Assembly: GCA_030432295.1 (NCBI GenBank)
Contig: JAUIHI010000041.1
Location: forward strand, 1-57,357
Origin: Anaerolineae bacterium
GTDB taxonomy: Bacteria; Chloroflexota; Anaerolineae; Caldilineales; Caldilineaceae
Reading direction: 5' to 3'
Length of the DNA stretch: 57,357 bases
Positions 3,928 through 47,171 of this stretch are shown one piece after another. Every line of letters starts with the position of its first letter. Within the stretch, counting starts at the first letter, position 1. The notes under the pieces were generated by a model. The model was not told the origin of the DNA and ran no database searches. It saw only the letters and a program-made list of their open reading frames with translations. The translations under genes were made by a program, and so were the position numbers.

Positions 3928-5079
3928 ATGAGTCAAGAAATTCCGAATGAAAATGTAGAAGTCAAACTCCTCGAAGACAGAGTCAGTGTAGCTTCCCAGC
4001 GGCAGTTAATCTGGTGGCGCTTTCGCCGCCATAAGGTAGCCCTGGCCGGACTGGTCGTCGTCATCTGTTTCTATCTGGCCGCCCTGGGCGGTGAGTTTCT
4101 GGCGGTCAGCGATCCCACAGCGGGCCGATCAGCCCGGGCCGTCGTGCCGCCTCAGCCCATCCATCTTTTCGATGAGGGCAGCTTTTCCCCCCACGTCTGC
4201 GCAGTCGAGGGCAGCCGGGACCTCTACACACTACAAAAAACATACGAAGCCGATTGCACCCAAAAGATCGGTGTACGCTTTTTTGCCGAAGGCTTCGACT
4301 ATAAATTTCTGGGGCTGATCCCGTCCAATCGCCATCTGATCGGCGTGAGCGAACCTGAAGAGTACAAATCCGAAGAGTATATCTTTTTGCTGGGCACGGA
4401 TGTGCAGGGGCGGGACCTCTATTCCCGCATTATCTACGGAACCCGCTCGTCCATGACCATTGGCTTAATCGGCGTGACGATGAGTCTGGCCCTGGGCATT
4501 ACATTGGGCGGCATCTCCGGCTTCTTTGGCGGGGTGTTGGATAATGTCATCCAGCGCACAATCGAAATCATCCGTTCCATCCCGACGATTCCCCTGTGGA
4601 TGGGGCTGGCCGCGGCCCTGCCCGCTGACTGGTCGATCCTCCAACTCTATTTTGCCATCACAATAATTGTCTCTCTCTTTGCCTGGACCGATCTGGCCCG
4701 GGTGGTGCGTGGCCGCTTTCTGGCCATGCGCGAGGAAGATTTTGTGACTGCGGCGCTGGTGGCCGGCGCGCCCTGGCAGGATATTATCTTCCGCCATATG
4801 GTTCCGTCGTTCTACAGCCATCTGATCGCCAGTGCTACTTTGGCGATTCCCTTTATGATTATCAGCGAGACTGCGTTGAGCTTTCTCGGCCTGGGCCTGC
4901 GTCCGCCCGCTATCAGTTGGGGCGTGCTGCTACAGGCCACCCAGAATGTGCAGGCCATCGCCCTCACCCCTTGGCTGATGTTCCCGGCAGTGCCGGTGAT
5001 TGTGGCGATTCTGGCCCTGAACTTTATGGGCGACGGTCTACGCGATGCGGCCGATCCCTACAGCGCGGTGGAGTCATAA
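3928..5079 (+). CDS. ABC importer permease, DppC/OppC type, with enlarged periplasmic loop
   Basis: This 383-residue permease is the partner of the preceding DppB-type subunit. The N-terminal helix (LAGLVVVICFYLAALGGEFL) is followed by an unusually long extracytoplasmic segment, about residues 55-145, before the conserved LGTDVQGRDLYSRIIYGTR entry into the transmembrane core. The EAA loop is visible as DFVTAALVAGAPWQDIIFRH. DppC proteins are usually about 300 residues, so the extra loop of roughly 80 residues is notable and may shape recognition of the long binding proteins encoded on both sides. The start is supported by AAGG twelve bases upstream. Confidence 0.9.
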   Translation: MSQEIPNENVEVKLLEDRVSVASQRQLIWWRFRRHKVALAGLVVVICFYLAALGGEFLAVSDPTAGRSARAVVPPQPIHLFDEGSFSPHVCAVEGSRDLYTLQKTYEADCTQKIGVRFFAEGFDYKFLGLIPSNRHLIGVSEPEEYKSEEYIFLLGTDVQGRDLYSRIIYGTRSSMTIGLIGVTMSLALGITLGGISGFFGGVLDNVIQRTIEIIRSIPTIPLWMGLAAALPADWSILQLYFAITIIVSLFAWTDLARVVRGRFLAMREEDFVTAALVAGAPWQDIIFRHMVPSFYSHLIASATLAIPFMIISETALSFLGLGLRPPAISWGVLLQATQNVQAIALTPWLMFPAVPVIVAILALNFMGDGLRDAADPYSAVES

Positions 5080-5134
5080 CCCCCGCTATTCATTCCACCC
5101 ATTGCCAATCTTTTGTGACTGAGGAGTAGGCGTT

Positions 5135-7282
5135 ATGTCCCAACACCCCCAAACCCGATTCACTTTTCTGCTATCGATTCTGCTTGTGCTGGTCGTAGTT
5201 CTTTCGGCCTGCGGTTCGCCAGCCGCTCCAGCGGAAGCACCCGAGGCAGAAGCACCGGCTTCGGCAGCTCCCGCCGCGCCGGCGCCACAGACCGAAGCGC
5301 CAGCCACAGAAGCTCCGGCAGAGGCGGCTTCTTCCCCGGCGATGACGACCGCCGAATATCAGGCACACCGGGCCGACTGCACCTGGGCCGCTCCCTGCTG
5401 GCCCCAGATTGTCAACGCAGTCCCCGGCGAATTCCACGAAGCGCCGATGCTGGCCGCAAAGGTGGCCGCGGGTGAACTGCCCCCAGTGGACGAACGGCTC
5501 CCCCTGGAACCGTTGGTCATTGCGCCCCCGGAATCCGTGGGACCCTACGGCGGCATCTGGCGGCGAGCCTTCACCGGACCCGGCGACCGGCAGAATTTCG
5601 AGCGGATGATCAACGACTATAACATTTACTGGGATACGGCAGGCGCAGAAGTTGTGCCCCGCATTCTCAAATCCTGGGAGCAGAACGCGGACGCTACAGA
5701 ATACACATTCCACCTGCGCGAAGGCACGAAGTGGTCTGACGGCACGCCTTTTACCACCGCGGACTATATGTTCTGGTATGAGCATATCCTGAAAAACGAG
5801 ACACTGACGCCCACCCAGCCCTGGTGGATCAATTGGGGCAGCACACCCGCGGTCTTTGAACCGATCGATGACTTCACCTTCCGCATCACATTCTCCCAAT
5901 CCTTCCCCTCCTGGCTGGAGACGATGGCCTCCAGCGGGGTGGCCGGTCACTACAACAAAGGGGTGAGTGGCGGCAGCGGCGCGCTCTACGCACCGGCCCA
6001 CTATCTGGAACAGTTCCACCCGGATTTCATCGGCGAGGAAAAGGCCAACGAATTGGCCAAGGAAGCCGGTTTTGAGGCCTGGCATCTCAATTTCTTGTCC
6101 AAGAACGACGCCCATATGAACCCGGACGTGCCGGTAATGACCCCCTGGATGCCGGTCACGACGATTGCGTCCCAGGAGTATGTGCTCGAACGCAACCCCT
6201 ATTTCTGGGCAGTGGACAGCGAAGGCAATCAGCTCCCCTACTTTGACGGGGTGTCCGGCGAACTAGTGGAGGAATTGGAAGTGCTCAATCTGCGTGCGAT
6301 TGCAGGCAACTATACCCTGCAAGGCCGCCACATCGACTTTTCCAAACTGCCTGTCATCCGGGAGAACGAAGTCCAGGGCGACTATTTCGTCGATTTCTGG
6401 ACCAACCGAACCCGCCATCAGGCCAAAATTGCCTTCAACCAGGACTGGAACGAAGAGCCGGAGATCGCGGGTTTCCTGCAGAATCGGGACTTCCGCAAGG
6501 CGCTCTCCCTATCCATCGAGCGGGACGAAATCAACGAAACCTACTTCCTGGGCCAGGGAACCGAAGCCAGCTTCTGCCCCCAGGAGACGCCCCCCTATTT
6601 CAACAGCAGCCGTTGGGACGACGAATTTGGCCGCTATGCCACAGATGAAGCCAATGCGCTCCTCGACGGAATCGGGCTGGACCAGCGGGACGGCGAAGGC
6701 TACCGGCTGCTGCCCAGCGGCCAACGGCTGATCCTGCGCATCGACGCGGTGAGCGGTGCTTTCATCGACTACCCCAGCATCGCCGAGAGTGTGGGCCAGA
6801 TGTGGAAGGATGGCGTGGGCGTCCAGCTACAGGTCAACCCGGTGGAGCGCAGTCTGTGGCAGGAGCGGATGATGGCCAACCAGCCAATGATGAATATGTT
6901 CGCCACCGGCTCGTGGACACCGGATGTTTCCCCGACACTGCTGCCGACAGAACGCTGGGCTCCCCTGGCTGCGGCCTGGGCCAGCGATCCCAACCCGGAC
7001 CCGGCGGAGTACGACGGTCCCCAGTGGATCAAGGATTTGGTTGCCAAGCACTGGGCAGCCGTCCAGGAGACCGACCCGGCCCAACGCCGCCAGTTGTACA
7101 TCGAAGGCACGGAAATTATGTGCGACGCCCAGGCCCGGCTGGGAATGGTTGTCAATGTGCCTGACCTGACTGTGATCATCAAAAATCAGATGCGCAATGT
7201 GCCGCGGCCTTTGGGTCGGGATGTCTACGACCAGACGCCGGGGCACGGCTATCCGGAAACCTGGTCGGTTGTGCAAGAATAA
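5135..7282 (+). CDS. ABC importer substrate-binding lipoprotein, family 5, copy 2
   Basis: This 715-residue lipoprotein is a paralogue of the product at 628-2769. The signal peptide ends in VVLSAC, with Cys26 lipidated, and is followed by an Ala/Pro/Glu tether to about residue 70. The family signature TFHLREGTKWSDGTPFTTADY lies near residue 190. The ATG at 5135 has GAGGAG a suitable distance upstream. The two copies keep the same order of landmarks to the C-terminus (GxGYPE), which points to tandem duplication around the permease pair followed by divergence. Two receptors sharing one transporter would widen substrate range; this is inference. Confidence 0.9.
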   Translation: MSQHPQTRFTFLLSILLVLVVVLSACGSPAAPAEAPEAEAPASAAPAAPAPQTEAPATEAPAEAASSPAMTTAEYQAHRADCTWAAPCWPQIVNAVPGEFHEAPMLAAKVAAGELPPVDERLPLEPLVIAPPESVGPYGGIWRRAFTGPGDRQNFERMINDYNIYWDTAGAEVVPRILKSWEQNADATEYTFHLREGTKWSDGTPFTTADYMFWYEHILKNETLTPTQPWWINWGSTPAVFEPIDDFTFRITFSQSFPSWLETMASSGVAGHYNKGVSGGSGALYAPAHYLEQFHPDFIGEEKANELAKEAGFEAWHLNFLSKNDAHMNPDVPVMTPWMPVTTIASQEYVLERNPYFWAVDSEGNQLPYFDGVSGELVEELEVLNLRAIAGNYTLQGRHIDFSKLPVIRENEVQGDYFVDFWTNRTRHQAKIAFNQDWNEEPEIAGFLQNRDFRKALSLSIERDEINETYFLGQGTEASFCPQETPPYFNSSRWDDEFGRYATDEANALLDGIGLDQRDGEGYRLLPSGQRLILRIDAVSGAFIDYPSIAESVGQMWKDGVGVQLQVNPVERSLWQERMMANQPMMNMFATGSWTPDVSPTLLPTERWAPLAAAWASDPNPDPAEYDGPQWIKDLVAKHWAAVQETDPAQRRQLYIEGTEIMCDAQARLGMVVNVPDLTVIIKNQMRNVPRPLGRDVYDQTPGHGYPETWSVVQE

Positions 7283-13444: not shown

Positions 13445-13500
13445 CCTGATAGTCTGTGGTTATTGTCCCCATTGGGCCACGACAGCCCCAGACTATCAGG
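13445..13500. repeat. Inverted repeat just upstream of the secreted protein gene
   Basis: CCTGATAGTCTGTGG (13445-13459) faces CCCCAGACTATCAGG (13486-13500), matching at 14 of 15 positions. The right arm runs into the ribosome binding site AGGAG of the next gene. A folded leader could therefore hide that site, or the repeat may terminate the upstream gene. Confidence 0.65.
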
Positions 13501-13511
13501 AGAATGTAGAA

Positions 13512-16223
13512 ATGACGCAAAAATCATCTATACCCCACACCTGCCCGGCAGACCAGAAGACGGCTCGCCGACGGCCAAGTCACAGCCCGTTATTACGGAT
13601 TTTTCTGCTGATCGGACTGCTGGCCTCTCTCTTTCCCCACGGATTCACGGCCACTGCCCACGCGCAGACGCCTGCCATCTGCGCGCCCAGAGAGTCAATC
13701 CGCACGCTTTTCCTTCCCTTCACCGCAGGCGGCGGACAGGCCGTGGCGGCTGTGCGGGCGACACTCCACACCGAACCGCAGGCAGCCCCCCGCACACTGG
13801 CCTATCAGGTGGGCAAAACTTACACATACGACTGGCTGATGACCTCCGGGATAGCCTTTGGCACCCGCAGTGCAGAGGGCGTGCGCGAGGATAGCCGGGG
13901 TGAAACGCTGATTCAGGGCGTTGCCGAAATCGCCATAACAGGCAAAGAGGATACGGCTTTTGTGGGACAGGTCATCCTGCGCGACCCGTGGCTTTGCTCC
14001 ACCAGCGACGGCGGACCCAACGGGTTTGTAGAGGACCCCGCGCTGGCCGCCGAATTGCTCAAACCGGTCGTCTTCCAGCAACTTCCCAGCGGCGTCATTT
14101 CCCAGGTACAGCTACCCGCGGACATCTCGACAGACGCAGCCAATATCCTCAAAGGCATTCTCAATAATCTGCAACTGACGCTGATGGCCGCCAGCAATAG
14201 CTATCAAGCCAACGAAGAGGGCAGTCAGGGCAGCTACGCCGTCGATTATAGCCTGATGGAGAAACCGAACGCGCTGGCTATCCACAAAACCATCGACAGT
14301 GCCAACTTCACCAACTTTCTTTTTCAGGGCGCCAATACCGGCCTGGAACTGACCAATCGCGTCACAATGACGCTGGACAGCACCCAGCAGGTGATCAGCG
14401 AAGTCCGCTTCGACGAACAGACGAACAGCTACGACGAAACCCAGACGACAGCCGATCCAGCGGTGGGCGGCTGGGATGGCCTGGCCCTGTGGTATCGAAC
14501 CAATACCAGCGGCTCGCTGAAGCTGCGTTCGGTGGCTGCGTCGCCGGCCAATCTGACCAGAGGCAGCCAGGGCGTCTATCGGGTCAGTTCACTGGGCACA
14601 GAATTCGGCGATCCGGTCACAGCCTTCAGCCCGGTGGACCCGGAAACCGCAGACCTGAACGCCGAGTTGAATGCACTGGAAGCAGACCCAACCAATCCGG
14701 CCCAGAGCCGACGACTGGCCCTGCTTCTGGAGGCCGACGCCACCGGTGGCGCACTGAACACCGTCCAGAGCCGCTTGCAGGCAGCCAAAGCCAACGACAG
14801 TGTGGCCCGGGCCTACATCGATCTGCTGGCGATTGTGGGGACACCGGCAGCCCAGTCGGTTTTGTCCGAGATATTGACCCCCAACAGCCAGGGATTCGGC
14901 GACGACCTGCGCGAACAGGCCATTATCGGCTTGGCATTGCAGACTGAGCCTACGACAGCAAGCATTGATGCGCTGCTGGTGATCAATCGGAATACAGATG
15001 AACCGCTGCACGACACAGGTGTGCTGGCGTTAGGTTCGGTGGCCAGCGAACTGGCCCGCACCGACCCGACGAAAGCCAATGGGATTGTGGCCGATCTGTC
15101 CCAGGCCCTGCGCGGTTCTACGACCATTTCGCAGACTGAATTGAGTCTGCTGGCGCTGGGCAACAGTGGCCACAGCGATGTCCTCAACCTGGCCCAGGGC
15201 TATTTCGACGATCCGGCGCCCCAGGTGCAGGCCGCTGCCTATCTGGCGCTGGCCAATATCCCTGACCCGGACGCTGAAACATTTCTGATTCAGGGTTTGC
15301 AGAGCGAGAAAAAGTCGCCTTTTGTCAAGGAAGTCATCGCCGATGCACTGGAGAACAAAAAGCCCCTGTCCGAAGCAGCCGCTCAGACGCTGGACAATTG
15401 GCCGCCACCCAAGCCCCAGCCCGAAGGTGGCGAATTCTCGAAAAAGTGGAATCGCCCCTTTGGCGGCAAATGGGTCGGCGGCAATCTGCCCGGCGAAGCT
15501 TATGTAGCCAGCCCGCCCTTCTCGCCCAAATTGGAGATGTCCGTAGGCCAGAAGGCGGAGGTCTACATCACCACACCCAAAAAGCTCATCGATTTCAAGC
15601 GCACAGTGCTGGATACCCGTGCGTGGGTAGAACCCCAGGGCGACAGCCAGCGCATCAGCTACTATTTCAAAGTGGGCAAGAAGTTGGTGAAGAAGGAGAA
15701 CAGCTACACCGTCGCCTGTGCCTATCAGGAGACGAAGAAGATCTACAAAAACACCCTGGAAATTTATGAGGCCAGCTTCACATATCCCGTCTATGCAGGG
15801 ATTGCTGTGACCGCACTGGTCAAAGTGATGGGACACTACAGCATCGATCTCAACTATGCGGTGGACACCTGTGCCGTCCTGCAGATGACTGGGGATATCA
15901 CCTTCACCCCCAGCGGGCGTTTCACCGGTGAAGCCGGGGTGGGGCTAAAAGTTGGCCTCTTTCGGGGTGGGGTGAGTGTGGGACTGACGGTGATGGATTC
16001 CCAAATTCCAGCCAAACTTTCTACAATCTTCGACGCCAATGGGATGAAGTTTTGTGCAAATGTGAAGGCGAAGACAAAGCCGCTGGGTGGGGCCATCATC
16101 GGCTGGGTGGAACGCAAGAAGCTGAACGGGGATTGGAAGCGTTTCCTGGAATGGAACATCTGGGATTTTTCCGTCAAGTCCAAGAACTATGACGTGTTGG
16201 TCAAGTGCTGGCAAACGAATTAG
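13512..16223 (+). CDS. Secreted protein resembling vitellogenin-type large lipid transfer proteins
   Basis: This 903-residue protein has a Sec signal peptide (hydrophobic core FLLIGLLASLF, then FTATAHA before the likely cleavage site). Residues about 95-360 begin LAYQVGKTYTYDW and show the long beta-strand pattern of the vitellogenin N-terminal (LPD_N) sheet. Residues about 390-620 form helical repeats, including LSLLALGNSGHSDVLNLAQ and the following QVQAAAYLALANIPD, which match the superhelix of vitellogenin, MTP and apolipoprotein B in wording and position. The remaining part, about 640-903, is beta-rich with several cysteines. In animals these proteins carry lipid in a cavity formed by sheet and superhelix. 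A lipid role here is inference. The main alternative is an unrelated HEAT-repeat protein with a beta-rich N-terminus. Confidence 0.6.
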   Translation: MTQKSSIPHTCPADQKTARRRPSHSPLLRIFLLIGLLASLFPHGFTATAHAQTPAICAPRESIRTLFLPFTAGGGQAVAAVRATLHTEPQAAPRTLAYQVGKTYTYDWLMTSGIAFGTRSAEGVREDSRGETLIQGVAEIAITGKEDTAFVGQVILRDPWLCSTSDGGPNGFVEDPALAAELLKPVVFQQLPSGVISQVQLPADISTDAANILKGILNNLQLTLMAASNSYQANEEGSQGSYAVDYSLMEKPNALAIHKTIDSANFTNFLFQGANTGLELTNRVTMTLDSTQQVISEVRFDEQTNSYDETQTTADPAVGGWDGLALWYRTNTSGSLKLRSVAASPANLTRGSQGVYRVSSLGTEFGDPVTAFSPVDPETADLNAELNALEADPTNPAQSRRLALLLEADATGGALNTVQSRLQAAKANDSVARAYIDLLAIVGTPAAQSVLSEILTPNSQGFGDDLREQAIIGLALQTEPTTASIDALLVINRNTDEPLHDTGVLALGSVASELARTDPTKANGIVADLSQALRGSTTISQTELSLLALGNSGHSDVLNLAQGYFDDPAPQVQAAAYLALANIPDPDAETFLIQGLQSEKKSPFVKEVIADALENKKPLSEAAAQTLDNWPPPKPQPEGGEFSKKWNRPFGGKWVGGNLPGEAYVASPPFSPKLEMSVGQKAEVYITTPKKLIDFKRTVLDTRAWVEPQGDSQRISYYFKVGKKLVKKENSYTVACAYQETKKIYKNTLEIYEASFTYPVYAGIAVTALVKVMGHYSIDLNYAVDTCAVLQMTGDITFTPSGRFTGEAGVGLKVGLFRGGVSVGLTVMDSQIPAKLSTIFDANGMKFCANVKAKTKPLGGAIIGWVERKKLNGDWKRFLEWNIWDFSVKSKNYDVLVKCWQTN

Positions 16224-16248: not shown

Positions 16249-16283
16249 ACAGAGCCGCCGGTGGGAGACACCGGCGGCTCTGT
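16249..16283. terminator. Bidirectional terminator hairpin
   Basis: A perfect 15-base stem (16249-16263 with 16269-16283) around loop GGAGA lies 26 bases after the stop of the secreted protein and just before the end of the convergent regulator gene. It is GC-rich but lacks a long T-tract. Confidence 0.65.
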
Positions 16284-16299: not shown

Positions 16300-19200
16300 T
16301 CAGACAGATTCAATGGGCTGGACGTTTGCCCTGTCCCAGGTGTTGCTCTCCACCGGTGGCAAGGGCGCGTCTACGTCGTCGGCCAGCACGAGGGAAAAAG
16401 CCAACAGGTGCTGGAGCGTCAATATTTCGGCTTGGGCCTGGATAGTCGCAAATTCACCGGGAGAAAGAAAAGTACGCGCCGTAGCCAGCGCGTCGTCGAT
16501 TTCAGTCTGATAGGCCGGTGGACGACTCTCTTGGCTGATCAGCCGATGATTTTCGCAGACAGCCAGCAGCAGCAGCCCCGCATCTGCCCGATCTATGCCT
16601 ATCAGCGAGATGGCAAAAGGTTCAAAGAAGTTCAATTGATGAACATCGAGAGGGATGGACCGATAGAGCGACAGCGCCGCGGCACACGCGTCAAAAGCAG
16701 AGCGGTGTTTCCCATCAAAGCGCAACATCCGTGCCCGAGAAATCCAGGCTGCGGCCAGCAGCACCCGATCTTCGCTGCTGCTGGCCGCAGCTTCCAGTTC
16801 GTCCACAGTCGCCCAGCCCAGATGAAAGCGCCCCGTCGCCAACTGATATTCCAGCAAGGCAGCCAAGCCATAGCCCAACAGACGCAGGGAGCCGCGTGGC
16901 CGAATCAGCGCAACGGCTTGCTCTAACAGCGGGCCGGCTTCTTCGTGCTCCCCTAAGGAAACGTAATGATTGCCCAAAGAGAAGAGCGCCACTGCCAGCA
17001 TACCGGACTGGCCGCCCGCTTCGGCCACGCGTATGGACTCCTGCAACAATTTTTGCCCCCGGGTCCAGTCCCCCACGCACTCGTACTGCACAGCCACATT
17101 TTGCAAAGCGAAAGCAATGCCCCAGTCATCCTCGGCCTGCTGATAGAATTGCAGGGCCTGTTGATGCCAGACGCGTGCCTCGGCATAGACTCCCCTGCGC
17201 CACGCCAGCGTTCCCAGGCCAGACGCAAGCCGGGCCTGTTCCGGCGCGGGCGTCCGCTTATCCACGCGCGCCCAGGCCAAATTCAGCCAACGGCGGCTCT
17301 CGTCTAATTGGGAGGTAGCATCCCAATAATAGGCCAGACAGCCCGCCAGGCGCAGGCCCAACTGAGCGCGTAGCCAGGGGCCATTCGGTGCGCCGCCCAA
17401 AGCCCAACCCAAAGCAGCGCGCAGGTTTTCATCCTCTCGCCCCAGCCGTTTGAACCAGGTGAATTCTTCGCCGCCGACCAGTTCCATTTCAGCCGTAGCC
17501 GCCAAATCCGTATAGTAACGGGCGTGGCACAGGGCCATTTCATCCACTTCGCCCGCATCCGCCAAGCGCTCCAGGGCATAGGCGCGTATGGTCTCCAACA
17601 TCCCATAGCGGGTGTCGGCTGCTTCCTCCCGCGCAAAAAGAAGCGATTTATCGACCAAACGCAGCAGCAGTTCGAAGACCGGTTCGCCGTCGATGGCAGC
17701 CAGGGCTAACCCAGCGTCGGGGTCAGCGCAGACAGCCTCTACCCCGCTCATCAACGCGCCCCCAGCAAAGACGGCCAGACGGCGAAAGAGGCACTGCTCT
17801 GCTGGGGAGAGAAGATCGTAGCTCCAATCGATGAGCGCGCGCAGGGTTTGCTGGCGGGGCAGAGCCGTGCGACTGCCGCTGGTGAGCAGAGAAAAGCGTT
17901 CGTCCAGCAACGCGGCGATGCGAGCTGGCGAAAGCGCGCGAACGCGGGCCGCGGCCAGTTCCAACGCCAGGGGCATCCCATCCAAACGGTGACAGATTTC
18001 AACTACCGCCGGGGCGTTGTCAATCGTCAGCGCAAAATCGGGCCGCTGGGCGACAGCCCGCTCCACAAAGAGACGGACCGCAGGCGCATCGGACAGCGCT
18101 TGCATATCCTCAGACATCACGACCGATGGGATAACGCCGGGCAGAGGCAGAGGCGACACAGGATAGACCTGCTCGCCGGAGATGCCCAGCGGCTCTCGGC
18201 TGGTGGCGAGAATCCGCACGCCAGGACAACGGGTGAGGAGCAGTTCGGCAGTGGTGGCAGCCGCGTTCAACAGATGCTCACAGTTGTCCAAAATCAGCAG
18301 CATTTGGCGCGGAGCCAGAAAATCGGCCATCAGGTGGGCGAGCGGGTGGCCCTCCCGTTCATCCACCCCCAGGCGATGGGCGATGGCATGGACAACCCGA
18401 TCCGGGTCGGTCAGGTCGGCCAGTTCTATCAGCACAACCCCGTCCGGGCAGGCGGCGGCGGAAGCCCGCCCACATTCCACGGCCAGGCGGGTTTTGCCGC
18501 TACCGCCGGGGCCAGTGAGGGTCAGCAGCCGGTTGTCCTGGAGCAGTTGGTGAATGGCCTCCATTTCGTCCTGGCGGCCAACAAAGCTGGAGAGAAGCGC
18601 AGGCAAATTGGTGGCGGGCAGGCGGGGCGGTGGCAAAGGTGTGGAAACGGAAGCTGGCGGCGAAGCGGCTGCCGGTTCCAGCAATTCCTGGTAAAGAGCG
18701 ACAGTCTTCGGCTCCGGGTCCACCCCCAATTCTTCGGCCAGAGCGGTCCGGCAACGGTGGAACTGTTCCATTGCGGCCGTGCGCTGGCCCATCCCCAGCA
18801 ACCCCTGCATAGCCTGACGATGGGCCACTTCCAGCCAGGGTTCCAGATCGAGCTGGCGCTGGGCATAGGCGTGTGCCCCGGCGAAATCCCTGTCAGTCAA
18901 TGCACAGTCGGCCAATGCGGCCAGGGCGGAGAGCAGCGCCAGGTGATATTGCTGTCGCTGTCCAGCCAGCCACGACTCAAAATCAGGCGCGTCCGAAAGA
19001 GTCAGACCTGCCAACAATTCGCCCCGATACAGTTCCACGGCAGCGGCCACGGCTTCCCGACAGGTGGCACATTCGGCCAAGCTGTTGTGCTGATGCTGGG
19101 CAGGCAGGGAGACACCTGCCCAGAAATCCGCGGTATCCGTACGAACCAATTCTCCGTGCAGGGTCACATCCCGGCGGGTGACACTACACATCTCACCGAA

Positions 19201-19452
19201 GAGGCCGGGCACGACAGTATCCAACACTTTGTTCAACCGGTAGAGAGACTGGCGTAGATTGCGCAGGCTGGTGCTGCCCTCCCCTTCAGGCCAGAGCAGA
19301 GCAGCCAGTTGTTCCCGGCGGTGGGGCTGTTCCGGCTGCAACAACAAATAGGCCACCAGCGCGCGCACTTTGTCTGTGGGCAGATCGACGGCAATGTTGG
19401 TGGTGGTTTCGGCGTGAAAGCCACCGAAAAGATGGAAAGTGATCCGAGGCAT
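16300..19452 (-). CDS. AfsR/SARP-type transcriptional regulator with NB-ARC ATPase and TPR repeats
   Basis: This 1050-residue cytoplasmic regulator has an N-terminal winged-helix DNA-binding part, about 1-90 (FHLFGGFHAE, later SLRNLRQSLYRLNKVL). It is followed by the bacterial transcriptional activation domain, about 95-260 (TALAEELGVDPEP). An NB-ARC-like ATPase occupies about 290-560, with Walker A GPGGSGKTRL near residue 314 and Walker B MLLILDNCEHLL. The rest to the C-terminus is tetratricopeptide-like helices. Such proteins act as ligand- or protein-gated activators; the signal cannot be read from the sequence. The ATG at 19452 begins MPRITFHLFGG, which is the family N-terminus. The gene is convergent with the secreted protein and divergent from the flavoenzyme at 19644, so it might control that enzyme. 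This is inference. Confidence 0.88.
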   Translation of the reverse strand: MPRITFHLFGGFHAETTTNIAVDLPTDKVRALVAYLLLQPEQPHRREQLAALLWPEGEGSTSLRNLRQSLYRLNKVLDTVVPGLFGEMCSVTRRDVTLHGELVRTDTADFWAGVSLPAQHQHNSLAECATCREAVAAAVELYRGELLAGLTLSDAPDFESWLAGQRQQYHLALLSALAALADCALTDRDFAGAHAYAQRQLDLEPWLEVAHRQAMQGLLGMGQRTAAMEQFHRCRTALAEELGVDPEPKTVALYQELLEPAAASPPASVSTPLPPPRLPATNLPALLSSFVGRQDEMEAIHQLLQDNRLLTLTGPGGSGKTRLAVECGRASAAACPDGVVLIELADLTDPDRVVHAIAHRLGVDEREGHPLAHLMADFLAPRQMLLILDNCEHLLNAAATTAELLLTRCPGVRILATSREPLGISGEQVYPVSPLPLPGVIPSVVMSEDMQALSDAPAVRLFVERAVAQRPDFALTIDNAPAVVEICHRLDGMPLALELAAARVRALSPARIAALLDERFSLLTSGSRTALPRQQTLRALIDWSYDLLSPAEQCLFRRLAVFAGGALMSGVEAVCADPDAGLALAAIDGEPVFELLLRLVDKSLLFAREEAADTRYGMLETIRAYALERLADAGEVDEMALCHARYYTDLAATAEMELVGGEEFTWFKRLGREDENLRAALGWALGGAPNGPWLRAQLGLRLAGCLAYYWDATSQLDESRRWLNLAWARVDKRTPAPEQARLASGLGTLAWRRGVYAEARVWHQQALQFYQQAEDDWGIAFALQNVAVQYECVGDWTRGQKLLQESIRVAEAGGQSGMLAVALFSLGNHYVSLGEHEEAGPLLEQAVALIRPRGSLRLLGYGLAALLEYQLATGRFHLGWATVDELEAAASSSEDRVLLAAAWISRARMLRFDGKHRSAFDACAAALSLYRSIPLDVHQLNFFEPFAISLIGIDRADAGLLLLAVCENHRLISQESRPPAYQTEIDDALATARTFLSPGEFATIQAQAEILTLQHLLAFSLVLADDVDAPLPPVESNTWDRANVQPIESV

Positions 19453-37525: not shown

Positions 37526-38356
37526 TCAAAAATCCCCTTCCAGCCGGAAGCGCACATACGCCCCCACCATCGGCAGGCCGACCCAGACGGCCAGGACGCC
37601 GATGAGCAGCGCGTTGAGCGCGTCCCCGTAGGTGCGAGTGGCATAGATGCCAGCGGGGCCGAGAATCTCCAGGCTGGCGCGCAGGCTGTTGACAGTGGCG
37701 ATTTTGAAAACCTGCAGCGGATTGAGCAGTGTCAGTGTAAAGAGCGTGCTGATGTGCAATTTCATCGCCATCGCCGTGCCCATCAGCCCCAAATCCCCCA
37801 CAAAGACGAGCAGCAGCCAGGCAAAGAGGGCCAGCCCCACGGCCAGCGCACCGCTGCGGCTCCAGGCCGAAATAAAAATTCCCAGGCTGAGAGTGGCCAG
37901 AGCCAGCATAAGCGAAAGGACGACCAGCGCGCCGTAGCGCCCGGCCTCCACTGCGCCCCCCTGCCAGGCGATGACTGCGGCGGAGAGGCCAAATCCCAGC
38001 AGGAGCGCGGCCAGCAGTGCGCCGCCCAGCCCCACCAGTTTGCCCAGCAGCACCTCAATTCGGCTGACGGGCTGGGCCAGAAGATAGGCCAGTGTGCCCT
38101 GCTCCCGTTCCCCGGCCAGGCTCTGTGCGCCGATTGTCAAACCCATCAGCGGCACAATCAGCAGGACCAGATTGATGAGACTGGCAGCGGTGCGCCCGAA
38201 GCCGGCAAAGCCGAACATTCCCGCGCCGCTGAGAGAGAGGCTGCTCAGGGCCACGGCCAGCACAGTGAAGGCCAGGGCGTAGAGGGCAAACCAGCGGTTG
38301 CGCAGGGAAGCGCGCAGTTCGTAGCTGGCGAGGGTGGCGATAGTTTTCAGGTTCAT
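37526..38356 (-). CDS. nosY: NosY, permease of the NosDFY complex
   Basis: This 276-residue ABC-2-type permease has six transmembrane helices. ELRASLRNRWFALYALAFTV at the N-terminus and SLAGEREQGTLAYLLAQPVS after helix 2 are characteristic of NosY. It forms the membrane channel of the NosDFY machine needed to assemble the copper-sulfur centre of NosZ. Its ATG overlaps the stop of the NosD-NosF gene by four bases, so the two are translationally coupled. Confidence 0.9.
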   Translation of the reverse strand: MNLKTIATLASYELRASLRNRWFALYALAFTVLAVALSSLSLSGAGMFGFAGFGRTAASLINLVLLIVPLMGLTIGAQSLAGEREQGTLAYLLAQPVSRIEVLLGKLVGLGGALLAALLLGFGLSAAVIAWQGGAVEAGRYGALVVLSLMLALATLSLGIFISAWSRSGALAVGLALFAWLLLVFVGDLGLMGTAMAMKLHISTLFTLTLLNPLQVFKIATVNSLRASLEILGPAGIYATRTYGDALNALLIGVLAVWVGLPMVGAYVRFRLEGDF

Positions 38357-40716
38357 CGGACGGGTTCCTCCAGGCTGAAAGCGACGGGGGACGGCAGACC
38401 GTTGACCACTGACGGCAGACCGCGGACGGCGGACGGTAGACCGGTGGCGACGGGTGCAGGGTCAATGATGGCTGACTCCGTAGACGAAAGGGGATGCACC
38501 CCTTGCGGTCTGCTGTCCGCCGTCCGCGGTCCTCCCAGCACCGCGGCGGGCGCGCCGTCGGCCACCAGCCGCCCGTCCCGCAGGATCAGCACCCGCTCGG
38601 CCAGCCGGGTCACTTCGTCCGCGTAGTGGCTGGTGAAAAGGAGGGTCTTGCCCGCGTCGCGCAATCCCACCAGCAGGTCGATGAAGTCGTCGCGAGTCGC
38701 CTCGTCCAGATTGCTGGTCGGCTCATCCAACAGCAGCACCGGTGGGTCGGCCAGGAGTGCCAGGGCCAGGGCCAGCCGCTGTTTCATCCCACCGGAGAGC
38801 GCGCCCACGGCCTTTTTCTCCTGTCCCGTCAGCCCCACCTGGGCCAACACAACCGGAATCCGCTCATCGCCCACGTTCTTCAACCGGGCATAGAAACGGC
38901 AACTTTCGGCAACGCTCAGGTCGTTGTGAAAGGCCAGTTCCTGGGGTACGTAGCCGAGGAAGCGGCGGGCCGTGCGTCCGTCCCGGCGCAGGTCATAGCC
39001 GTTCAGGTGCAGTTCGCCTTCGCTGGCCAGCAGGCCGAGCAGACATTTGAGAACAGTCGTCTTGCCCGCACCGTTGACGCCCCAGAGGGCGATGGATGTA
39101 CCGACCGGCAGTTCGAAGCTGAGATCGTCCACGGCAGTGACGGTTTCGTCGCTCCACCAGGCCCGGCCTGGGCGGGGGTAGCGTTTGGTGAGGTTCTGGA
39201 TTGTGAGCATATGGTGGCCCTTTAGAATTGGGGGGACAGGTATTGGGTATTGGATATCGGGTAGTGGTGTGATCTCGCTAGCCGGGCGGACTCGAATACC
39301 CAATATCCAATAGCGGATTTGTCCACTGAACATTGCCAGCGCGCCGAGCAGCATTGCGGCCGCCAGCCAGCCGATGCGGCTTTGGGCCTGGACGGATTGG
39401 GGCAGGGCCGCGGGCAGAATGGGCGTCATTTCGGGCGTTTCGTCGGTCAGCTTCGGCTTGGGTTTGATGACCGGAAAGGCTTTGGCCGCGAAGTCGATGG
39501 CCTGCTGGGCCGGGCTGAAGAAGAAGAGGCGCAGGTTGGGCTGGCGGTCGGCGATATTCTCGAAGAGACTCTCCGCGTGATAGGCGATGTCGCCCACCCC
39601 TTCGCCGGTGGCGTCGTAGCCCACATAATCGCTCCAATAGTTGCCGTCCCAACTGTTGCCGCCCAGTTCGTCGCCGGGATTGCTGCCTCCGCCCTTCACG
39701 CCCACCTGCTCCAGATTGTCCAGAAAGGTGTTCTGGCGCAGGAGGTTGCGCTTGACCGCGGGCATCATCAGCACGCCGATGTCGTTGAAGGCCAGGACAT
39801 TGCGCTCGATGGGATGGGAAATGTCCACATTGCCGGGCGAGTTGTCGAAGAAGAGGCCCACCCGGTTGTCCAGATAGTAGTTGTCCTGGACAGTCACCCC
39901 GTCCATATCCTTCAGGGCCGTGCCGTAGCCGCTGGGTCCCCGGTTCTGCTGGAAGGTGTTGCGCTGGATCAGCACATTTTTGCTGTACATCAGATAGGCG
40001 CCGACCGAATTGCCCACCATAAAATTGTCTTCGATGAGCATTTTGTCGGTGTACATCATATGCACGCCGTAGCGATTGTCGTGGAAAGTGTTGTCCCGCA
40101 CGGTCGTGCCGTCGCTGAACCAGAAGATAGCGTCCCGCACCCGTTCGACAGTATTGCCCTCGACGATACATTCCTCGCTCTGCCAGAGGCGCAGACCGTC
40201 TCCCCGGCGGGCGATGTCCAGTTCCTTGCCGGTGATGTAATTGCCCCGGATAACCAGCCGGTGGGCGTTGATGCCCCGGATGCCGTAGAGGACATCTTCC
40301 AGCCGGTTGTTGAGCAGTTGCACATCCTCGGCGTCTTCGACGGTAATACCGCCGTCCTCTTTGTCGATGACGTTACCGCTGTTGCGGATGACAAAGTTTT
40401 CCAGAATCACATTTGGCGCGGTGATGACGACGACTGTGCCTTTGCCCTGGCCGTCTATGACCGGGCGGCTGCCGTCCGCGGCCACGGCCCCGCGCAGGTG
40501 CAGAGGCTTGTCCACGGCCAGGTCGCCGTAGTAGACGCCCGCGGGCACGTCGATAGTTGCGCCCGGTTGCGCGGCTGCGATGGCGGCGGTCAGGTCAAAG
40601 CCGTTTTCTTGCGCTGCGCTTTGACCAACGCCGGCGAGAAGAATCAGGCCACTGATGAACACTGATAAATACTGATTTTTGATGATTCGGTTGAATCGAA
40701 CTACTTTGCCAGTCAT
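38353..40716 (-). CDS. NosD-NosF fusion: periplasmic beta-helix domain joined to ABC ATPase
   Basis: This is a single uninterrupted 787-residue frame. Residues about 1-35 are a signal peptide. About 40-430 form the NosD right-handed beta-helix with repeated N and G turns (LLNNRLEDVLYGIRG, VQDNYYLDNRVGLFF). About 448-470 is a transmembrane helix (RIGWLAAAMLLGALAMFSGQ). From residue 503 it is a complete NosF ATPase: GVNGAGKTT Walker A, LSGGMKQRLALALALL, and VLLLDEPTSNLDEAT. Topology is consistent, with NosD outside and NosF inside. The linker (about 471-502) and the last roughly 55 residues are encoded by intergenic-type repeats. ATG 39210, with AAAGGG upstream, could also start a separate NosF. 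In known organisms nosD and nosF are separate genes. Confidence 0.85.
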   Translation of the reverse strand: MTGKVVRFNRIIKNQYLSVFISGLILLAGVGQSAAQENGFDLTAAIAAAQPGATIDVPAGVYYGDLAVDKPLHLRGAVAADGSRPVIDGQGKGTVVVITAPNVILENFVIRNSGNVIDKEDGGITVEDAEDVQLLNNRLEDVLYGIRGINAHRLVIRGNYITGKELDIARRGDGLRLWQSEECIVEGNTVERVRDAIFWFSDGTTVRDNTFHDNRYGVHMMYTDKMLIEDNFMVGNSVGAYLMYSKNVLIQRNTFQQNRGPSGYGTALKDMDGVTVQDNYYLDNRVGLFFDNSPGNVDISHPIERNVLAFNDIGVLMMPAVKRNLLRQNTFLDNLEQVGVKGGGSNPGDELGGNSWDGNYWSDYVGYDATGEGVGDIAYHAESLFENIADRQPNLRLFFFSPAQQAIDFAAKAFPVIKPKPKLTDETPEMTPILPAALPQSVQAQSRIGWLAAAMLLGALAMFSGQIRYWILGIRVRPASEITPLPDIQYPIPVPPILKGHHMLTIQNLTKRYPRPGRAWWSDETVTAVDDLSFELPVGTSIALWGVNGAGKTTVLKCLLGLLASEGELHLNGYDLRRDGRTARRFLGYVPQELAFHNDLSVAESCRFYARLKNVGDERIPVVLAQVGLTGQEKKAVGALSGGMKQRLALALALLADPPVLLLDEPTSNLDEATRDDFIDLLVGLRDAGKTLLFTSHYADEVTRLAERVLILRDGRLVADGAPAAVLGGPRTADSRPQGVHPLSSTESAIIDPAPVATGLPSAVRGLPSVVNGLPSPVAFSLEEPVR
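38419..38530. repeat. Imperfect 25-base inverted repeat encoding the NosF tail
   Basis: Arms 38419-38443 and 38506-38530 match at 23 of 25 positions. GGACGGC/GCAGACC words are repeated further to the left. It lies in frame inside the 3' end of the fusion gene, after the end of the recognisable ATPase domain. Confidence 0.7.
39241..39312. repeat. Word-repeat palindrome encoding the NosD-NosF linker
   Basis: TATTGGGTATTGGATATCG (39241-39259) faces a complementary array at 39293-39312 with a few mismatches. It is in frame within the linker and looks like an intergenic element read through. Confidence 0.6.
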
Positions 40717-45125: not shown

Positions 45126-47171
45126 TCATTTCATTGCGCTGGACTCATCCGGCTCGATCATCAGATAGCCGTGCATTTCCAGATGCAGGGCCGAGCAGAA
45201 TTCGGTGCAATAGTAGCTGAACACGCCGTCTTTGTCGGCCACAAATTCGAAGGTGGCCGTCTCACCCGGTTCGATGCTCAGATTGACATTGTAGGCCGGT
45301 ACGGCGAAGCCATGCACCGCGTCCACAGCCCGCTCCAGATTGGTGATGTGCCAGGTCACATTGTCGCCCTCTTTGATGTTCACGTGTTCGGGGCTGAAAT
45401 GGCTGCGGATCGCCGTCATATAGACAGTCACATTGTTGCCGTCCCGCTCCACCCGCTCCTCACCCGACTTGGGCGCATCCGGGTTCACTTCCCACTTGTG
45501 CGGGTCCCAGCCCACTTCTGGGTAGACTTGCACAGCCTTGAGCCGTTCGGTCTTCATAATCTGGGCGTAGTGAGGTTCGCCAAAACCTACGGGCATATCA
45601 TAGAGCAGTTGCAGGCTGGCCCCTTCATTGCCGATATCAATCAGTTGGAAGTTCTGGGGCAGCAACGGGCCGACGTTGGCGAAGCGGTCCACCGACCACT
45701 TGTTCAGGCTGACCAGAAAGTCGCCCGCGGGTGTCACAGTGTCACCTTCCGCAGCCGCGATGTGGCCCACATTGTAGTGGATCGACTCTTTGTCGATGAG
45801 CGTCCAGCCTTCATCCGCGTGGGCATAGTCGCCGCCACCCAGAGACCAGCGGGCCACCATACTGTCCAGATAGAGGCTGGTGTAGGCGTAGCCCTGGTTG
45901 TCGAACTGAGTGTGGAGGGGTCCAAGACCCAACTCGACCTGGGCTTCCAGCACACTGTCGAAGTCCAGCACGGGGATGCCATAATCGTCGGGCGTCCACT
46001 TCTGATCAGCAATGGCCTGCTGGATTTTGTCAAAGGCGAAGATCGTCACGTGGGGGTCCAGCTTTCCGCTGACCACCATATAATCCCCGTTCGGCGCGAT
46101 GTCGATGCCGTGGGGAGACTTGGGTTCGGGGATAAAGAAGAGCAGATTTTCGGCGATGGCGGTCTCCATCGTCACGTAGTTCATGCCGTTTAGTTCATTG
46201 GTATTGGCCGCGGCCACCTGCTCCAACTTCTTCAGGTCGATGACGTGCAGGTAGTCCATATCGTTCTGGCTGGCACCAGATTCAAAGGGGACGGCCCCTT
46301 CCACCGCGCCCAGGCCACCGGTGGCCCGCTCGGTGTTGAAGCTGTTGCAGAAGATCCAGCCTTCGCTGACCAGTTTGCCGCTGTCGCACAGGTCCTGCCA
46401 ATAGGGAGGCAGCTCCATCGCGAAGGACTCTTCGGGAATGATGCGCCCTTTTTCCCGATCAAATTTCCAGAAGGTGATCATCCCCCGCCACTTTTCATTG
46501 TACTCGTCGATCCCGGCGAAGCTGCCCACCGGGGGAGCCGCGTACTGGCCGCCTTCGATCACCCATTCGGTATTGGGGGTGACAAACGCTCCGCCGTGAT
46601 CGTTCATAGCAATCGGGTTTTTGATAATCTGCTTCGTCTCAAAATCGCGCAGGTCAATCACAGCAATGCGGGACTGGGCTTTGTCGTTGATAAAGAGCCA
46701 CTCACCGTCATAGCTGCCCGCAGTTTCGGAAAGGGCCGGGTGGTGGGTGTCACCCCACGTGACCGAGCTTCCGGCCACTTTGCCCTCGTCAAACATCGCG
46801 GCCTGCGCCACATCGCCAAAACCATAGCCCTGCCACGGCTCCGGTGTAAAGACAGCAATCGTGCGCAGCAGACGCATAGAGGGAAGCCCAACCACGTGGA
46901 CCTGGCCGCTATGACCACCGGAGGCAAACATCATATAGGGGTCGTACTGACCGCTGGGCATATATGTCTTGAGCGCAGCGGTGACATTTTCCGGGGTCAG
47001 CCCCCGGTTTGCAATGACTTGGGCGGCATCTTCGGCGACACCGGCAGAAGTCTGTTGGGCAGGGGCAGCAGTCTGGCCGCCGCCCTCGCCGGGCGAAAGA
47101 ACCAGTGCTGCCAGGACGATCACCACCAAAACCAGGGCGGCGATAATCCCGTAAAGGACAGAACGCTTCAT
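45126..47171 (-). CDS. nosZ: Nitrous oxide reductase, clade II (Sec-type)
   Basis: This 681-residue enzyme reduces N2O to N2 outside the cytoplasmic membrane. The N-terminus (MKRSVLYGIIAALVLVVIVL) is a hydrophobic anchor or uncleaved signal without twin arginines, marking the Sec-exported clade. The seven-bladed propeller carries the CuZ ligands: His87 in GGHSG, His143-His144 in GDTHHP, His192 in NDHGG, then the His in KSPHGID, GPLHTQFD and VGHIAAA. The C-terminal cupredoxin domain holds the CuA site: VHGFAVP supplies a His, and C655-TEF-C659-SAL-H663-LE-M666 the rest. AGGAGG stands seven bases before the ATG. It is transcribed alone from the operator promoter at 47259-47298, with accessory genes on a separate transcript. 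Confidence 0.96.
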   Translation of the reverse strand: MKRSVLYGIIAALVLVVIVLAALVLSPGEGGGQTAAPAQQTSAGVAEDAAQVIANRGLTPENVTAALKTYMPSGQYDPYMMFASGGHSGQVHVVGLPSMRLLRTIAVFTPEPWQGYGFGDVAQAAMFDEGKVAGSSVTWGDTHHPALSETAGSYDGEWLFINDKAQSRIAVIDLRDFETKQIIKNPIAMNDHGGAFVTPNTEWVIEGGQYAAPPVGSFAGIDEYNEKWRGMITFWKFDREKGRIIPEESFAMELPPYWQDLCDSGKLVSEGWIFCNSFNTERATGGLGAVEGAVPFESGASQNDMDYLHVIDLKKLEQVAAANTNELNGMNYVTMETAIAENLLFFIPEPKSPHGIDIAPNGDYMVVSGKLDPHVTIFAFDKIQQAIADQKWTPDDYGIPVLDFDSVLEAQVELGLGPLHTQFDNQGYAYTSLYLDSMVARWSLGGGDYAHADEGWTLIDKESIHYNVGHIAAAEGDTVTPAGDFLVSLNKWSVDRFANVGPLLPQNFQLIDIGNEGASLQLLYDMPVGFGEPHYAQIMKTERLKAVQVYPEVGWDPHKWEVNPDAPKSGEERVERDGNNVTVYMTAIRSHFSPEHVNIKEGDNVTWHITNLERAVDAVHGFAVPAYNVNLSIEPGETATFEFVADKDGVFSYYCTEFCSALHLEMHGYLMIEPDESSAMK

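Follow-up and report, generated by a model that had tools for sequence, protein, structure and literature searches.

A secreted Chloroflexota protein very likely homologous to the animal large lipid transfer proteins over its first two domains

We describe a bacterial protein of 903 amino acids that is very likely homologous to the animal large lipid transfer proteins (LLTPs) over two consecutive domains, an N-terminal β-sheet and an α-helical superhelix. Its gene lies at 13512..16223 (+) of the window, by which we mean the whole stretch of DNA analysed (57,357 nucleotides). LLTPs are usually treated as an animal superfamily, the one behind yolk and circulating lipoproteins. On balance we favor a bacterial relative of the LLTPs that is secreted, about the size of MTP, and engaged in lipid binding or transfer; the lipid function is inferred. 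A fold thought to be animal is also present in bacteria, where it is rare and diverse and may carry lipids too. Bacterial proteins that share these two domains, diverse as they are, offer outgroups for rooting the LLTP superfamily; being small and single-chain, they could be expressible with neither PDI nor apoB as a partner. Should lipid binding prove true, this would be a first example of LLTP machinery in bacterial extracellular lipid traffic.

The open reading frame occupies exactly these coordinates, starts with ATG, and has no in-frame stop. A Shine-Dalgarno-like AGGAG (13498..13502, +) is located 9 bases 5′ of the start codon. Residues 1-51 (13512..13664, +) form a Sec-type signal peptide by our reading of the sequence, with an RRR n-region, a LLRIFLLIGLLASLF core, and a cleavage site between AHA and Q; a leader is found in all homologues. 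The GC content (58.5%) and GC3 (0.71) of the gene resemble those of the bacterial neighbor genes, and the contig bearing it is Chloroflexota. The Caldilineaceae MAG ACE_CHL8 (L006) has the same gene, 89% identical, with the same flanking genes. Both the gene and its leader are shown. Between the leader and the N-terminal module lies a C...(V/L)(F/Y)LP segment (13665-13740 of the window) that is common to several Chloroflexota members (equivalents in L045, L036, L037, and L082); a similar segment, YLPLV, occurs in a secreted protein (4622-5539) encoded next to the homologue in L082.

The Pfam model Vitellogenin_N matches the window protein with 77.5 bits (E = 1.1e-21; curated cut-off, 24 bits), in two stretches that correspond to the N-sheet and the superhelix. 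HEAT_2, also from Pfam, matches with 39.7 bits, and a search of NCBIfam returned no model for the protein. Among all PDB sequences, the sole significant phmmer match is lipovitellin (1lsh, E = 1.2e-5, residues 181-587 vs. 80-509). As a yardstick, lipovitellin is scored 28.3 bits by the window protein versus 25.8 bits by human MTP (8eoj_B). Homologues were gathered from whole genomes. The alignment (A1) contains 12 members, the window protein and 11 others, all from Chloroflexota; the G720 member, from the same phylum, was added after this alignment, giving 13 bacterial members. All 12 aligned members match Vitellogenin_N. Searched against the PDB, the 12-member profile finds 1lsh (8.4e-25, over profile positions 67-565) and human MTP (4.5e-13), and it is colinear with both across ~500 residues. 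The LLTP superfamily is described by 22 conserved motifs (N1-N22), with the N-terminal LLT module as its marker (PMC1783640), and superfamily membership is met at this marker module. Homology to the animal LLTPs over the N-terminal sheet and superhelix is therefore very likely, and we count it among the results shown rather than inferred. The original prediction had claimed a vitellogenin/MTP/apoB likeness and quoted the peptides LAYQVGKTYTYDW (from residue 96), LSLLALGNSGHSDVLNLAQ, and QVQAAAYLALANIPD. All three peptides are present, the likeness held for these two domains and is stronger than claimed, and the search against Vitellogenin_N that it proposed supports it.

The N-terminal β module (residues 96-372; 13797..14627, +), supported by profile A3, Pfam, and the alignment, holds NILKGILNNLQLTL and E...G...Y motifs and is homologous to the LLTP N-sheet/barrel. 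Profile A3 represents the N-terminal part only, with the helical repeats removed. Against the whole PDB at E < 10, the only chains it recovers are 1lsh (1.6e-10) and those of two MTP entries (2e-4). Since this repeat-free profile finds just lipovitellin and MTP, the vitellogenin match is independent of the HEAT repeats. The original prediction was to be refuted by a lack of profile similarity beyond the repeats; it survived, and the convergence that it had allowed as an option is rejected for the N-terminal half. With hhalign, the separated N-part aligns to lipovitellin at 3.3e-10 (probability, 96.7), and a reversed MTP control stays at noise level. A shared signature, P..........G.I......N[IMFL].[KR].......Q..L....E....G.....Y, is near-complete in all members, and the helix motif NI.RG.L...Q..L of the module is kept. 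In the animal proteins a Cys follows the last G of the signature (GNCKVTY in MTP, GICQTTY in lipovitellin); this Cys of the animal E...G.C..TY element occurs in none of the 13 bacterial members in the alignment.

The superhelix (residues 373-630; 14628..15401, +; ~15 helices) is supported by an AF2 model, Foldseek, and hhalign, the last aligning the separated region to lipovitellin at 3.6e-9 (probability, 96.1). When modelled alone with AF2 (373-630), it gives 15 helices (pLDDT, 75.6; pTM, 0.58), so that a helical model of the second domain is shown. A Foldseek search of 350,542 PDB chains ranks 1lsh first (E = 4.5e-5, TM 0.67) and MTP 11th (TM 0.66); bee vitellogenin has a TM of 0.67-0.68, and regular alphaRep solenoids are close behind. 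By VIA-align, residues 1-258 of the model correspond to MTP 296-563 (Z = 15.2, rmsd 4.5, 249 residues), and residue 296, where the alignment begins, is the start of the MTP helical domain. AlphaReps reach a Z of up to 18.0 with the model (224 residues, rmsd 3.6), and 1lsh is absent from the 50 VIA-align rows, though it is Foldseek's first match. The superhelix fold by itself is HEAT-like, and the LLTP assignment comes from sequence and extent. For this part, the structural comparison proposed in the original prediction is met, the model being matched end to end by lipovitellin and by MTP. The shared sheet-plus-superhelix cavity that it also expected is not shown: full-length AlphaFold, run from two sequences only (window and L006), gave an unusable model (pLDDT, 35.7), and the complete cavity remains an inference.

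The original prediction was silent on residues 640-903 (15429..16220, +), an amphipathic-β domain that makes up almost a third of the protein and has no detectable relative. This region has no match in Pfam, NCBIfam, or the PDB. The MTP C-terminal domain scores 0.1 bits in hmmsearch, which is shuffle level, and has a probability of 0.4% in hhalign; in sequence, the third domain of the window protein shows no kinship with the lipid-binding domains or sheets of the LLTPs. The β character of the domain is shown: averaged over the family, the alternation of hydrophobicity at β period lies at z = 7.8 above shuffles, and in single sequences the β amphipathicity z is 3.3 for the window domain and 1.1 for the MTP C-terminal domain. 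Cys736 and Cys787 are invariant, and Cys848/Cys899 are found in part of the family. Once leader cysteines are set aside, the number of cysteines is even in every chain, as expected of a disulfide-bonded extracellular protein; the even counts are shown and the disulfides inferred, with Cys736-Cys787 and Cys848-Cys899 as the predicted pairs. Most family members have no added domain, and extra C-terminal parts are seen in two, a ricin-B lectin in the G025 homologue and a cysteine-containing tail in G720. The loci with such extra parts are L037:7810-11196, where the addition is the ricin-B lectin, and L082:5820-9209, where it is an unidentified cysteine-containing tail of roughly 150-200 aa.

Downstream, the convergent neighbor is a SARP/AfsR-type regulator (BTAD, AAA, TPR; 16300..19452, -). 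Between the two genes is a 15-bp perfect hairpin (16249..16283, no strand assigned; dG -39.6 kcal/mol for a 60-nt stretch), likely a bidirectional terminator. Upstream are genes for a peptide ABC transporter, a hybrid histidine kinase, and a metallo-beta-lactamase-fold protein, and no conserved neighboring lipid-metabolism gene was found at the loci examined. A close SARP orthologue (83%) is confined to the two genus members that carry the LLTP-like gene. G025 and G720 likewise have SARPs next to the gene, making three lineages with the window genus; the source genome has 27 BTAD (SARP-type) genes. A conserved SARP plus LLTP module was considered and rejected: The G720 regulator is closer to five other SARPs of the source genome than to the window's, so the flanking SARPs are not orthologous, and a regulatory linkage is no more than a weak hint. 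Elsewhere in the window, a 787-aa ORF (38356-40716, -) appears to be a NosD-NosF fusion, with NosD at 158-366 and an ABC ATPase at 530-668; not far from it is a gene resembling nitrous oxide reductase (45129-47171; nos_propeller, COX2/cupredoxin). A CARDB domain is present in a very large ORF near the contig end (50459-57301, -; 2280 aa).

Seven of 400 sampled Chloroflexota genomes match the N-module profile, all at E < 1e-95 and with nothing intermediate. Vitellogenin_N is matched by 17 genomes of the phylum, 10 of which vanish with the N-module profile and are HEAT-only. The LLTP-like gene is present in four of the 46 members of the bacterial family, two of the seven members of the genus, and six of 158 genomes of Chloroflexia, mostly Herpetosiphonaceae. 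Members are found in near-closed Herpetosiphon genomes. Herpetosiphon aurantiacus DSM 785, recognized through its plasmid, has three copies, one of which, Haur_5045 on plasmid pHAU01, is already annotated "Lipid transport protein domain." Bacterial members are therefore already known to databases as domain annotations; no paper on bacterial LLTP homologues was found in the open-access literature searched. No relatives were detected in viral contigs or phages, and the plasmid collection gave only pHAU01; outside Chloroflexota, the search covered only these collections plus 14 control genomes. One further candidate, G014, was rejected: its match was at the leader only, and no homologue was found there.

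The bacterial members are mutually divergent, with identities down to about 18-19%. An unrooted tree has two bacterial clades, one of Anaerolineae and G315 and the other of Herpetosiphonaceae, with the animal pair between them. Although G315 is in the same class as Herpetosiphon, its protein clusters with that of the window at a support of 100, which suggests that the LLTP-like gene moved between classes. With just two animal sequences included, the tree does not tell whether the gene passed from bacteria to animals or the reverse. A bolder reading, which we entertain without quite favoring it, is that the LLTP fold predates animals or has a history independent of them. The bacterial proteins would then be a secreted lipid-transfer lineage with its own third domain, either ancestral to MTP, vitellogenin, and apoB or sharing a pre-animal ancestor with them.

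Under the lipid-carrier reading, the protein would be exported by Sec and then oxidized outside the cell. An N-terminal β barrel/sheet would be followed by the helical superhelix, like in lipovitellin and MTP, with the C-terminal amphipathic β domain (~265 residues) in place of the MTP lipid-binding domain. This third domain probably makes a hydrophobic pocket beneath the arch of the superhelix. The most likely cargo would be a modest load of phospholipid or glycolipid, not a large triglyceride core, and the putative role is extracellular lipid shuttling or storage, MTP-like instead of a yolk particle. Lipid binding, cargo type, and physiological role are all inferred. We propose binding or transfer because size and layout are most like those of MTP, a protein for which phospholipid transfer has been argued as the ancestral activity (PMC3337244). 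Against this reading stand the unrelated sequence of the C-terminal domain, the unusable full-length model, the absent animal Cys, and the lack of adjoining lipid genes; the added C-terminal parts in two members, one a ricin-B lectin, would also suit a surface adhesin.

The last point leads to the rival that we regard as possible, an LLTP-derived fold without lipid cargo. The protein would then serve as an extracellular scaffold or adhesin, its C-terminal domain, and the lectin where there is one, attaching to glycan, protein, or the surface of another cell. This rival is favored by the lectin of the G025 homologue and the other, cysteine-rich tail in G720, by the lack of kinship between the C-terminal domain and known lipid-binding sheets, and by the absence of lipid genes nearby. 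However, most members lack added domains, NI.RG.L...Q..L is kept, and the strands of the C-terminal domain have one hydrophobic face, which fits a lipid pocket. We consider it unlikely that the protein is a predation or competition factor, secreted to take lipids from other cells' surfaces or bring lipids to them. Herpetosiphon is a predator of bacteria, and H. aurantiacus has three copies, one on a plasmid; yet no killing or secretion-system genes were seen adjacent, and the gene is carried by Caldilineaceae, which are not known to include predators.

Two further explanations were considered. A generic HEAT-repeat solenoid, its vitellogenin likeness being convergent repeat wording, could account for the HEAT_2 matches, for alphaReps that equal or better MTP in VIA-align (Z = 18.0 vs. 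15.2), and for the ten other Chloroflexota genomes that match Vitellogenin_N through repeats only. It is all but excluded, since the repeat-free profile still retrieves only lipovitellin and MTP and the N-part aligns to lipovitellin with hhalign; for the N-terminal half it is refuted. The patchy distribution (two of seven in the genus, four of 46 in the family) would agree with a recent gene transfer from a eukaryote into the lineage or with eukaryotic sequence contaminating the assembly. Such an origin is very unlikely given a base composition that matches the bacterial neighbors in GC and GC3, an uninterrupted ORF with a bacterial ribosome-binding site, an identical gene order in the independent MAG L006, members in near-closed Herpetosiphon genomes and on pHAU01, and two deep bacterial clades with identities as low as about 18-19%.

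Among known systems, lipovitellin (1lsh) shares the N-terminal sheet and superhelix with the window protein, colinear over ~500 residues at ~22% identity, and vitellogenin is likewise secreted. In contrast to vitellogenin, the window protein is shorter, has a third domain unrelated in sequence, and lacks the animal Cys of the N-module. The open β-sheet DUF1943 and VWD of the vitellogenin family have no Pfam match in the window protein (E ≤ 10) or the 12 members (E ≤ 1), DUF1081 of the apoB/apolipophorin family has none in the window protein or the 12 members, and the MTP C-terminal lipid-binding domain has none among the 12 members, at sequence level only. Since these C-terminal domains are not found, membership in the vitellogenin, apoB, or MTP family is not met for the window protein. 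The MTP large subunit (6i7s, 8eoj) is similar in size (894 vs. 903 aa) and has the same three-part layout, with domains at 22-297, 298-603, and 604-894, the last of which binds lipid (PMC3337244); the N-module matches at 2e-4 and the superhelix aligns from residue 296. MTP differs in being ER-resident with PDI, whereas the window protein is secreted, in a C-terminal domain that cannot be aligned, and in a likeness lower than that of lipovitellin. HEAT-repeat proteins and alphaRep designs share the helical repeat solenoid but have neither the N-terminal sheet module nor the C-terminal β domain. Haur_5045 and its chromosomal paralogues in Herpetosiphon aurantiacus, although only ~19-25% identical, without the Cys57/Cys162 pair, and in a separate clade, belong to the same three-domain family and align over the full length.
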